Below are positions 1 through 4,431 of a DNA stretch of 51,338 nt, piece by piece. Made by a program: the position numbers and the translations under genes. The DNA is taken from positions 1 through 51,338 of the forward strand of contig CALQZS010000001.1 in assembly GCA_943349945.1 (NCBI GenBank), written 5' to 3'. Position 1 is the stretch's first letter; every line of letters begins with the position of its first letter. This stretch comes from Candidatus Nomurabacteria bacterium. GTDB taxonomy: Bacteria > Patescibacteriota > Minisyncoccia > Phycocordibacterales > SBAW01. The notes under the pieces are model-generated. The model was not told the origin of the DNA. It ran no database searches and saw only the letters and a program-made list of their open reading frames with translations.

Positions 1-2
1 CC

Positions 3-92
3 ACACCCCCCGCCGAGGAAAAGAAGAAAGGTAAGGAAAATTTTTGGTTTTGCTCCCGCGACCGCAGGGAGCGGACGAGGCGCGCAGGTTAG
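3..92 (+). CDS. Possible 3' tail of an upstream gene (partial)
   Basis: An open frame enters from the left edge without a start and stops at TAG 90-92. The 29 visible residues are Lys/Glu-rich at first (PAEEKKKGKE) and then Arg-rich. A charged tail like this is common at the end of ribosomal proteins, but no family can be recognised, and the last part lies in GC-rich repeat-like sequence, so the real stop could be different. Confidence 0.2.
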   Translation, partial: TPPAEEKKKGKENFWFCSRDRRERTRRAG

Positions 93-142
93 TCCTCGCT
101 CGGATTGTTTTGGAAAAAAGTTCGGATTTTGTTCAGGAGACA

Positions 143-275
143 CAGCCAAAAAATAGAATCACCGTTTTCGCCAAAATTCGGAGCGTCGCAAAGCGACGCG
201 ACTGGAGTTTCCGCCAGAATTCGCCAAGGGTTTTTGAAATCCAAAAGAAGCGAGCGGGACGCGAGGCGGGGGTTC
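143..275 (+). repeat. Left arm of a 133-bp perfect inverted repeat
   Basis: This stretch is the exact reverse complement of 1709-1841. Its outer end begins CAGCCA, the reverse complement of the tRNA-Gln 3' end at the other arm. The arm encodes, on the minus strand, the same residues as the C-terminus of the serine recombinase (FKNPWRILAE), so it can be read as an inverted remnant of a second recombinase 3' end or as one arm of an invertible segment. Confidence 0.9.
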
Positions 276-359
276 TCTGTTCTCCGAACAGTCAAAATAG
301 TAATTTTGTGAGCCAATCTTTAAGCGATAATTATCAATATTTAACATAAACCTTTTTCT

Positions 360-1868
360 ATGAACAAATTCTTTCTATATGCGAGAAAATCTACCGACGA
401 GCCAGATCGTCAGATTTTGAGTATTGAATCGCAAATTGACGAGTTGAAAGAATTTGCCGAGCGAGAGCAGTTGGAAATTGTTGAAACTTTTGTTGAGTCA
501 CAGACCGCTAAAGAGCCGGGCAGACCTATTTTCAACAATATGCTCTCGCTCATAGAAAAAGGAAAAGCGTCGGGAATTTTAGCTTGGCATCCCGATAGAT
601 TGGCGAGAAATAGTATTGACGGCGGAAAGATAATCTATCTGTGCGACCTTGGCAAAATTAAGGAGCTAAAATTCCCGACCTTTTGGTTCGATGCTACGCC
701 ACAAGGTAAGTTTATGTTAAATATTGCTTTTGGGCAGAGCAAATACTATGTGGATAATCTTTCAGAGAATGTGAAGCGTGGACTTCGACAGAAAGTAAGA
801 CGAGGCGAACAGTCCGGTCAAGCTCTCACTGGATATTTGAATGACAAACTAAACAAGAAAATTATTCCCGACCCAGAAAAATTTCGCCTCGTCAGAAAAA
901 TGTTCGAAGTCTACGCTACTGGAAATTATTCTCTGAAAGCTACAAGGAATTTGCTCGCCCAAAAAGGCTTGCTGTCTAAAAATGGTAAAGTTCTCACTAT
1001 TTCAAACACGCAGATGATATTGAAAAATCCTTTTTACTACGGAATGTTTTTGTTCAACAAAGAACTTTACCAAGGAAAGCACGAGCCAGCGATTTCAAAG
1101 AAACTTTTTGATAAGTGCGCGGAAGTTTCGGCGAGGAATGCTCACCCGATGAAGCGAGGAATTATCAAACATGTCTTTCGTGGAATATTTTTGTGCGGAG
1201 AATGTGGCTGTGGTATCACAAGTGAAGTGCAGAAAGGTCATACCTATTATCGTTGTACTAAAAAGAAAGGTGTTTGTGCGCAAAAATATATCCGCGAAGA
1301 ATTCCTCGCCGAACAAGTGAATGACACTATCAAAAAAGTTTCTTTGCCGTCCGAGTGGAAAGAATTCATGCTCGCTGAATTAGAAAAGGAACAAGCGAGC
1401 AGTTTCCACTCTGACGAGCTTTTCGTTCAAAATCTGAAAAATCAAATCAAAAGTGTTGAGGAGACGCTAGATAGGCTTCTTGACGCTCATTTGGACAGCA
1501 CAATTACGAGCGAGGAGTATATCGCCAAGAAGCAAAAGCTCCTCAACCAAAAAATTGATTTTTTAGAGAAATTGAAAGATTTTGAACGAAAAGGCAATCG
1601 CTGGCTCGAACTTTCTAAACAATTCATTTTAGACAGTAACCAAGCCGTAATTATCGCTTCCGAAGAAAATCTCGAAGCCAAAAGAGATTTTCTTAAAAAG
1701 ATTGGCTCGAACCCCCGCCTCGCGTCCCGCTCGCTTCTTTTGGATTTCAAAAACCCTTGGCGAATTCTGGCGGAAACTCCAGTCGCGTCGCTTTGCGACG
1801 CTCCGAATTTTGGCGAAAACGGTGATTCTATTTTTTGGCTGGGATACAGGGATTCGAACCCCGATTAA
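360..1868 (+). CDS. Large serine recombinase
   Basis: Site-specific serine integrase/invertase. The N-terminal resolvase domain has the nucleophile in YARKST (Ser11) and the arginine-rich region WHPDRLARN. It is followed by a recombinase domain, a zinc ribbon (CGECGCG near 278 and a second Cys pair, YRC...GVC, near 300) and a coiled coil (about 345-410), the usual order for integrases. The frame has no stop of its own before the tRNA: its last 10 residues (GYRDSNPD end) are translated from tRNA-Gln, and the preceding 44 or so from the right inverted repeat. The native C-terminus probably ends near WRILAE. Base composition is more AT-rich than the neighbours, as expected for a mobile gene. It is flanked by inverted repeats and lies at the 3' end of tRNA-Gln, its probable attachment site. 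Confidence 0.9.
   Translation: MNKFFLYARKSTDEPDRQILSIESQIDELKEFAEREQLEIVETFVESQTAKEPGRPIFNNMLSLIEKGKASGILAWHPDRLARNSIDGGKIIYLCDLGKIKELKFPTFWFDATPQGKFMLNIAFGQSKYYVDNLSENVKRGLRQKVRRGEQSGQALTGYLNDKLNKKIIPDPEKFRLVRKMFEVYATGNYSLKATRNLLAQKGLLSKNGKVLTISNTQMILKNPFYYGMFLFNKELYQGKHEPAISKKLFDKCAEVSARNAHPMKRGIIKHVFRGIFLCGECGCGITSEVQKGHTYYRCTKKKGVCAQKYIREEFLAEQVNDTIKKVSLPSEWKEFMLAELEKEQASSFHSDELFVQNLKNQIKSVEETLDRLLDAHLDSTITSEEYIAKKQKLLNQKIDFLEKLKDFERKGNRWLELSKQFILDSNQAVIIASEENLEAKRDFLKKIGSNPRLASRSLLLDFKNPWRILAETPVASLCDAPNFGENGDSIFWLGYRDSNPD
1709..1841 (-). repeat. Right arm of the 133-bp perfect inverted repeat
   Basis: Exact reverse complement of 143-275. The last 6 bases overlap the 3' end (A-G-CCA) of the tRNA-Gln gene on the minus strand, so the repeat boundary coincides with the tRNA end. 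The arm also encodes the C-terminal part of the serine recombinase on the plus strand. Confidence 0.9.
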
Positions 1869-1909
1869 AGGCTTCAAAGGCCTCTGTCCTACCATTAGAC
1901 GATATCCCA
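1836..1909 (-). tRNA. tRNA-Gln (anticodon TTG)
   Basis: On the minus strand the gene begins TGGGATATCG and ends TATCCCA-G-CCA with an encoded CCA, the classic U1-A72 tRNA-Gln acceptor. The anticodon stem GAGGC/GCCTT encloses the loop CTTTGAA, giving anticodon TTG. The T-arm GGGG-TTCGAAT-CCCT is intact. Both flanks carry mobile-element signatures: a recombinase inverted repeat at the 3' end and a GIY-YIG gene ending at the 5' end. Confidence 0.95.
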
Positions 1910-2667: not shown

Positions 2668-3567
2668 ATGACTAAAATCATTCTCGCAGTAGTTGCCGTG
2701 CTTGTGCTTTTGGGAGTTGGTGCATACTTCTGGCTTCCTGCTGGGTTTATAGCCACAACCAACCCGCCACCCACAACCACGCCCGACCCAACCACCCCAC
2801 CTGCCGCCACCTCAACTCCGCATGGAGGCAAAGTGGTTATAGGCAAGTCGGTCGAAGGTCGCGATATCGAACTCTACCAATACGGCCAAGGCACTACCGA
2901 GCTTTTGTTTGTGGGCGGCATACACGGTGGCTACGAGTGGAACACGACTCTTGTGGCACACAACTTGATGGACTACCTTGCTGCAAACCCCGAGGCAATT
3001 CCAAGTAACATCAAAGTAACCGTCATTCCTACTTTAAACCCAGACGGTCTCTACAGCGTCGTGGGTACTGCTGAGCGCTTCTCTCCTACTGACGTTCCTT
3101 CATCACAAACAACGGTTATCGCCGGACGGTTTAACGCCAACAAAGTCGACCTTAACCGCAACTTCGACTGCGACTGGCAAGCATCCGCAACCTGGCAAAG
3201 CAAGACCGTAAGCGGCGGCACACAAGCCTTTTCCGAGCCCGAAAGCCAGGCAATTAAAGCGTACATAGAGTCCAACACCCCAGAGGCCGTGGTGGTGTGG
3301 TACAGCGCTGGCGGCGGCGTCTTTGCCTCCAGCTGCCACAACGGCGTCTTGGACGAAACCAAAACCATCACCAACCTCTATGCCAAGGCAGCAGGCTACA
3401 AAGCATCAAACGACTTTGACTTTTATTCCATCACAGGAGACATGGTCAACTGGCTCGCCAAAAAAGAAATCCCCGCTATTAGTGTTTTGCTCACCACACA
3501 CAGCAGCATCGAGTGGGACAAAAACCTAAGCGGCATTACCGCATTGTTTAAACACTACGCACAGTAG
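2668..3567 (+). CDS. M14-like zinc carboxypeptidase paralog, probably inactive
   Basis: Membrane-anchored (TM about 4-24) with a Pro/Thr linker (31-52) and an M14 fold from about residue 55. The first zinc motif GGIHGGYE (83-90), NPDG (124-127) and DLNRNF (161-166) are intact. Two essential positions differ from the paralog next door: the third zinc ligand His (WHS) is Tyr212 in WYSAGG, and the catalytic Glu (TVEL) is Leu274 in SVLL. The protein therefore probably lacks peptidase activity and may bind peptidoglycan peptides or regulate its partner (inference). Nine bases separate it from the second copy, so they form one operon. The -10 TATATC at 2657-2662 ends five bases before the ATG. Confidence 0.85.
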   Translation: MTKIILAVVAVLVLLGVGAYFWLPAGFIATTNPPPTTTPDPTTPPAATSTPHGGKVVIGKSVEGRDIELYQYGQGTTELLFVGGIHGGYEWNTTLVAHNLMDYLAANPEAIPSNIKVTVIPTLNPDGLYSVVGTAERFSPTDVPSSQTTVIAGRFNANKVDLNRNFDCDWQASATWQSKTVSGGTQAFSEPESQAIKAYIESNTPEAVVVWYSAGGGVFASSCHNGVLDETKTITNLYAKAAGYKASNDFDFYSITGDMVNWLAKKEIPAISVLLTTHSSIEWDKNLSGITALFKHYAQ

Positions 3568-3576
3568 CGCTACTAT

Positions 3577-4431
3577 ATGCGGCGTCTACTTGTTATTGTC
3601 TTAATTCTTATGGCGCTTGTAGGCGTGGGTGTGTGGTGGGCAACAAAAGATGCTCCAGCCCCCGCCCCTGTTGCACCCACCGCGCAAGGCCCCGAGGTTA
3701 CCACTATAGGCAAGTCTGTCGAAGGGCGTTCGATAGAAGCCTACACCTTTGGCCAAAGCGGCAAGCACTTGCTGTTTGTGGGCGGCATACACGGCGGCTA
3801 CGAATGGAATAGTGTCTTGTTGGCATACGAACTTATCGACTATCTAAAAGCAAACCCCGCTGTTGCAGAGGGCGTTACTGTTACCATTATCCCGTCCGCA
3901 AACCCAGATGGAGTGTTTAAAGTAGTAGGCAAAGAAGGTCGCTTTAGCGCTGCCGACGCTTCGACAGATGCCGACACTCTGGCGGCTGGACGCTTTAACG
4001 CAAACGAGGTAGATATCAACCGGAACTTCGCCTGCAAGTGGCAACCAACCAGCACTTGGCGTAGCAAACAAGTTAGCCCCGGCACTCAAGCCTTTTCCGA
4101 ACCAGAGGCCCGCGCCATACGAGACTTTGTCTCTAAGTCCTCGCCAAATGCTGTGGTCTTTTGGCACAGCCAAGCAAACGCCGTCTATGCGTCCGAGTGC
4201 GAGGCCGGTGTATTACCCCAGACACGCGCTGTTATGGAAACCTACGCAAGCGCAGCTGGCTACCCCGCAATACTTTCCTTCGATGCGTACCCAATTACCG
4301 GTGACGCCGAAGGCTGGCTAGCGTCTATAGGCATACCAGCCATCACCGTAGAGCTTGCCGACCACACCAGTGTGGAGTGGGAGAAAAACCTCGCCGGCAC
4401 TAAGGCACTATTTGCGCTCTATAGTAAGTAA
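3577..4431 (+). CDS. M14 family zinc carboxypeptidase, membrane anchored
   Basis: 284 residues: N-terminal TM (4-22), Ala/Pro-rich linker (26-38), then the M14 domain. Catalytic features are all present: GGIHGGYE (69-76) for zinc, NPDG (109-112), DINRNF (146-151), the third zinc ligand His197 in WHSQ, and the general base Glu259 in ITVEL. Related proteins cleave gamma-D-glutamyl or C-terminal residues of cell-wall peptides; acting outside the membrane on murein peptides is inferred from the anchor. It shares about half its residues with the preceding paralog, which lacks two of these residues. It is translated from the same operon, with start ATG 3577 nine bases after the previous stop. Confidence 0.88.
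   Translation: MRRLLVIVLILMALVGVGVWWATKDAPAPAPVAPTAQGPEVTTIGKSVEGRSIEAYTFGQSGKHLLFVGGIHGGYEWNSVLLAYELIDYLKANPAVAEGVTVTIIPSANPDGVFKVVGKEGRFSAADASTDADTLAAGRFNANEVDINRNFACKWQPTSTWRSKQVSPGTQAFSEPEARAIRDFVSKSSPNAVVFWHSQANAVYASECEAGVLPQTRAVMETYASAAGYPAILSFDAYPITGDAEGWLASIGIPAITVELADHTSVEWEKNLAGTKALFALYSK

Follow-up and report, generated by a model that had tools for sequence, protein, structure and literature searches.

What places a serine recombinase gene between two perfectly matching inverted repeats, each ending in the 3' end of a tRNA gene? The question is raised by the opening part of a 51,338-nucleotide stretch of DNA (hereafter the window, meaning the whole stretch), position 1 of which is the start of the 343-kb contig C1. 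The two arms (133 nt each, 100% complementary, separated by a 1433-nt spacer; see table) enclose a recombinase open reading frame of 502 aa that reads through the right arm into tRNA-Gln. The left arm repeats part of the recombinase 3' end in reverse, and CAGCCA, the 3' end of the tRNA-Gln gene, forms the outer end of both arms. The arms, their tRNA-derived ends and the course of the recombinase frame had been noted in a preliminary description of the DNA, and they stood up to closer analysis. A perfect repeat of 133 nt is far beyond chance, and past the left arm the homology to the recombinase 3' end shrinks to just two 12-nt patches with indels. The recombinase has the Resolvase, Recombinase and zinc-ribbon domains in that order (PF00239, PF07508, PF13408; all above cut-offs), with the catalytic serine in an invariant YxRKS motif. 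The DNA fold of the arm alone gave a hairpin z-score of -0.9, which is nothing special, and a promoter/terminator scan returned a number of sites not above that of shuffled sequences. We consider it very probable that the window begins inside an integrated, tRNA-targeting serine-integrase island, a type that occurs chiefly in Patescibacteria and in which attP appears to be duplicated, inverted and homogenised.

Coordinates of the features at the start of the window, with their proposed roles
Feature	Position	Strand	Remarks
S, inner end of the cargo module; putative P-type (left) half of attP	1..142	+	Contig C2 opens with the same 149 bp; complete islands of relatives have two inverted copies of the homologous flank
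GTTCGG, T-loop-like motif of S	120..125	+	23 nt to core (P spacing); equal offset in relatives' aligned attP sites
Core CAGCCAA	143..149	+	Common to S/left arm, tRNA-Gln/right arm and S/C2
Left arm, putative P' half with reversed codons of the recombinase C-terminus	143..275	-	With S, would form an intact inner attP
Large serine recombinase (integrase)	360..1868	+	Catalytic YARKS and DRLARN motifs; directed toward tRNA-Gln
Right arm	1709..1841	+	With tRNA-Gln, would form attL
tRNA-Gln(ttg), target gene	1836..1909	-	T-arm and acceptor 3' strand as putative B half-site
GTTCGA of tRNA-Gln	1859-1854		18 nt to core

The segment outside the left arm, which we call S, is the inner end of a module, and the cargo proper lies outside the window. 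Contig C2 of the same genome opens with the identical 149 bp and departs from C1 at base 150, right after CAGCCAA. We read this shared stretch as a branch of the assembly graph, with one sequence, S, that appears to continue both into the left arm and into the beginning of C2, because further contig ends in this assembly share overlaps of roughly equal length. The contig bearing the window's cargo is outside the genome bin, and the island is assembled here from C1, C2 and relatives. In one contig of a genome of the same genus (G020) the C2 genes (reversed), a copy of S, the recombinase C-terminus (92% identical), tRNA-Gln and the C1 genes follow each other in this order. Another genome of the genus (G029) has homologues of the C2 genes within 1.4 kb after tRNA-Gln and no recombinase, and thus apparently preserves an island-free version of the site, of the kind for which the preliminary description had pointed to related genomes. 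Taken together, the two layouts indicate that C2 represents the chromosomal DNA downstream of tRNA-Gln, the S at its start being attR. A further search for an empty site, via the gene downstream of the island in G023, returned just 32-40% matches of unclear orthology.

Several neighbouring features deserve mention in their own right. Just inside the C2 junction (253-1296; L006) lie an XRE regulator gene and the truncated first part of HsdR; the cargo of L066 likewise opens with XRE and then HsdR, and the pair on C2 likely remains from an earlier island that had occupied this tRNA-Gln. Directly upstream (on the 5' side) of tRNA-Gln, about 300 bp (1911-2223) with a GIY-YIG-like frame, absent at this place in G020, end at the far side in a broken copy of the 5' end of this tRNA (gtcctaccattag ... 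gacgatatccca) and look like a second small insertion at this gene. Two related tandem genes (299 and 284 aa; proteins 55% identical) occupy 2668-4431, near tRNA-Gln, and a similar pair is present in a few genomes of the genus.

The arrangement recurs widely. Among ~150 related genomes nearly all full-length close relatives of the recombinase have long, near-perfect inverted arms (up to 171 nt), and a scan of named genomes recovered 80 loci, mostly from Patescibacteria and from many separate assemblies, 70 of which have arms of 25-155 nt. As the loci were gathered by similarity to the window's recombinase, these counts describe its relatives, not Patescibacteria at large. A tRNA gene was detected on the C-terminal side of the recombinase in 50 of the 70 armed loci and on the other side in none. 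The non-tRNA flank recurs, inverted and ending at the core, 1.2-10 kb farther out in seven of nine long contigs, and within the named set a second S is present in 28 of the 47 loci with at least 400 bp of left flank, enclosing 0.85-8.8 kb of cargo; in the other 19 it was not found, where the contig or the 10-kb flank may stop first or the island may have decayed. The complete order is hence tRNA/arm-rec-arm'/S'-cargo-S/chromosome. It is complete in L066, the closest of the named loci (Nomurabacteria; recombinase 94% identical; likewise at tRNA-Gln), in which two identical 183-bp copies of S lie 7.6 kb apart. Thus, while the arms described at the outset are real, they make up only half of a larger duplicated site (S/core/arm), and the element reaches well past the recombinase unit to which the preliminary description had confined it.

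The target genes of the named set are those for tRNA-Ser, Gln, Ala, Gly, Leu, Asn, Trp, His and Asp, to which the earlier set of relatives adds Glu, Thr and Arg. L029, L080 and L092 have, where the tRNA would be, a sequence that resembles the S of a different island, as is predicted for tandem insertion at one tRNA; L084 resembles them with a less clear alignment. Two loci depart from the common layout: L041 (G115:C3 1281-3301) has a tRNA gene at each arm (tRNA-Phe and tRNA-Leu), and L022 has degenerate arms and a recombinase directed away from the tRNA. Seven relatives (L105, L111, L112, L117, L123, L128, L131) come from records titled Sulfuricaulis, Limisphaerales, Desulfobacterales, Bdellovibrio, Deltaproteobacteria, Actinobacteria and Omnitrophota, and represent either mis-binned contigs or true spread outside Patescibacteria. 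A 40-kb region (G003:C2 75000-115000; L057, L058), where several serine recombinases belonging to different clades occur together with numerous tRNA genes, is an island-insertion hot spot. A viral origin of the island was dropped, as viral contigs searched with S gave no match and held seven recombinase relatives, none of them close (best phage protein identity 29%).

The junctions themselves suggest how such islands are built. All three (tRNA with arm, S with arm, S with chromosome) have in common just a short core, which corresponds to tRNA positions 71-74 or slightly more. On the tRNA half GTTCRA stands 18 nt from the core, and on S a GTTCRA-like sequence stands 23 nt from it; this offset of +5 was retrieved by script in 40 of 44 loci (the other four have GTTCTGAC at that place), compared with ~9.5 of 44 in which shuffled flanks yield a 5-of-6 match anywhere in range. 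Since attP of the Listeria integrase has its zinc-ribbon motif 5 bp farther out than attB does (PMC3783163), the matching offset marks the tRNA side as B type and S as P type. Right arm plus tRNA can then be read as attL, S plus left arm as an attP kept inside the integrated island and S at the start of C2 as attR, and the sequences have these forms (tRNA/arm that of attL, S/chromosome that of attR, S/arm that of an intact attP). Conservation extends to -32 in S but is lacking in the chromosomal half of attR; no clear mirror copy of GTTCRA was seen in the right (P') half of attP among the aligned sites. In the complete islands of relatives, and for the window's locus as read from C1 and C2 together, putative attL and attR sites flank integrase and cargo, with the short core at the tRNA 3' end.

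We reason that a large serine integrase would join its attP (S/core/arm) with an attB made of the tRNA T-arm and acceptor 3' strand, crossing over around tRNA positions 71-74 and reading the T-loop GTTCRA on the tRNA side and its copy 5 bp farther out in S. Insertion at tRNA-Gln would yield attL (tRNA/right arm) and attR (S/chromosome, the start of C2), with a second, complete and inverted attP (S/left arm) retained 5' of the integrase gene, so that inverted arms would bracket the integrase and inverted copies of S the cargo. The recombinase would accordingly be an active integrase, and the island would presumably exit as a circle with two attP sites.

The history of the arms can be read from their differences. 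Between the window and L066 each arm shows 11 differences, at identical sites and with identical changes in both arms, and within islands 30 of the 59 arms of at least 60 nt are free of mismatches (mean mismatch 2.1%). Arms alike inside islands that have diverged together between islands point to ongoing homogenisation instead of recent origin. In a quick tree of 69 recombinases, 47 armed ones and five scattered, interior armless ones form a single clade (SH-aLRT 96); its sister group lies at tRNAs and has no arms, and one further group has neither tRNA nor arms. The sister recombinases of Patescibacteria (L191, L201-L204, L206-L209; protein 32-36% identical) are, like that of the window, directed toward the tRNA, but they fall outside the armed clade and have no inverted arms (longest match 14 nt). 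Judged by this comparison of sequences, the arrangement is the mark of an old, widespread recombinase clade. The suggestion that perfect identity implies recent origin or active exchange is therefore borne out for exchange, given the concerted evolution of the arms, and is not supported for recent origin, the arrangement being that of an old clade.

Other explanations have to be weighed against these data. The preliminary description had proposed that the segment 276-1708 inverts, i.e., that it is a switch flipped between the arms by its own recombinase, for which the perfect inverted arms around a recombinase and the reversed recombinase of the degenerate L022 might speak. A freely flipping unit should nonetheless leave the tRNA on either side, and the ratio found was 50:0, with L022 as the single exception to one orientation; moreover, in all 16 islands that have an XRE gene, this gene is located at a distance of 247-493 bp from the inner core and is directed away from the recombinase. 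The switch would also need recombination of attL with attP, an unproductive pair in known serine integrases (PMC3783163), and we regard inversion as very unlikely. Marginally less credible is an IS-like element of ~1.7 kb that has the arms as ends and was inserted beside the tRNA. Such an element would account for the compact, single-gene build with inverted ends and for its presence in many genomes, but not for a non-tRNA flank that is itself conserved and repeated at the far end of the island, for a unit seen just between a tRNA (or the S of another island) and S, or for the empty-type locus of G029, from which the entire island is missing; among the loci examined, no arm-recombinase-arm unit was seen that had unrelated flanks and a short target duplication.

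The left arm's nature as part of a recombinase 3' end, with faint homology past it, could also be explained if two opposed islands had met and a deletion had left one recombinase and the 3' end of the other. The layout is, however, found in 47 sampled recombinases of one clade, which requires a single event and then long retention; such a deletion might possibly have been the origin of the design, it is unlikely as a recent local accident, and as an account of the locus as a whole we hold it to be highly improbable. The earlier idea of the left arm as a chance remainder of a second recombinase is thus not supported, since the layout marks an old and widespread clade. An assembly or amplification artefact, which the position at a contig end beside a branch of the assembly graph could suggest, has a negligible probability, given that 70 of 80 loci, which come from many projects, share this anatomy, also deep in long contigs (including L084, AP024682, a record titled complete genome), and that the junction falls exactly at the core.

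If the window does open inside an integrated island with a duplicated attP, a reason for which the inner copy would be retained may lie in its position. Equal activity of both attP sites would lead to mixed polarity, and the polarity found is not mixed. We tentatively propose that the inner attP, which lies between the recombinase and XRE genes, may serve the integrase as a control site or a back-up, held identical by gene conversion, which could keep the copies alike. Integration at the inner attP would split the recombinase-XRE region and integration at the outer one would not, which could be the source of the fixed polarity. L041 and L022 are compatible with rare use of the inner site. A bolder and rather doubtful possibility is that the inner attP is not a relic but a working acceptor or a copying device. 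As an acceptor it would capture DNA that carries a tRNA attB, and L041 would be the product of such a capture; as a copying device, a hairpin or self-templated step would rewrite the identical inverted attP pair at each transfer, which would explain both the identity of the arms and the fixed polarity. Either role, if true, would mean a new lifestyle for serine-integrase elements.

The cargo of the islands checked is rich in defence genes. L066 encodes type I restriction functions together with an AbiP2-type reverse transcriptase and a Cas4-like nuclease, L072 has restriction genes and an OLD-like ATPase, and L098 a methyltransferase and a PD-Lambda-5 protein. For Patescibacteria, a very large group of which few members are in culture, the islands would be a well-defined carrier of defence functions (in the islands checked, type I restriction, DRT reverse transcriptase and others), and one that appears to move between distant lineages, because the window, Nomurabacteria and Taylorbacteria have recombinases that are ~95% identical. 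They further suggest a route by which one integrase family could reach many tRNA genes, with the near-universal T-loop as target, and would supply integrase work with dozens of natural attP/attB pairs of known targets. The retained inverted attP with its concerted arms poses a sharp, testable question on the control of serine integrases.

Neither serine integrases nor tRNA islands nor the 5-bp rule is new. The staphylococcal cassette chromosome is likewise a mobile cassette with a serine recombinase, and CcrA/B/C show weak similarity over most of the window's recombinase (CcrB, E = 2e-29); the score of this recombinase for CcrB, 102.5 bits against a curated NCBIfam cut-off of 900, is far too low for membership, and its targets (tRNA genes) differ. 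The integrases of Listeria A118/LI, phiC31 and Bxb1 have the same Resolvase-Recombinase-zinc ribbon order, and that of Listeria also carries the P-type half-site motif 5 bp farther out than the B-type one (PMC3783163). In contrast to these three, attB is here a tRNA gene, proposed to be read via its T-loop, and a full attP is duplicated, inverted across the integrase gene and kept in the integrated island. The tRNA-targeting islands of the Islander/TIGER collections (cited in PMC12884075) resemble ours in insertion at the tRNA 3' end, an integrase adjoining the tRNA, an island arm that supplies the last bases of the tRNA gene, and tandem accumulation; they differ in that here a serine integrase replaces the commoner tyrosine one, three junctions replace two, and inverted copies of S bracket the cargo. 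The inverted, duplicated attP arrangement was not described in the literature searched, coverage of which was partial and took in few subscription journals, so that the absence is a weak one. Set beside these systems, what is most likely new is the proposed recognition of the T-loop on many tRNAs together with a retained, inverted and homogenised second attP.
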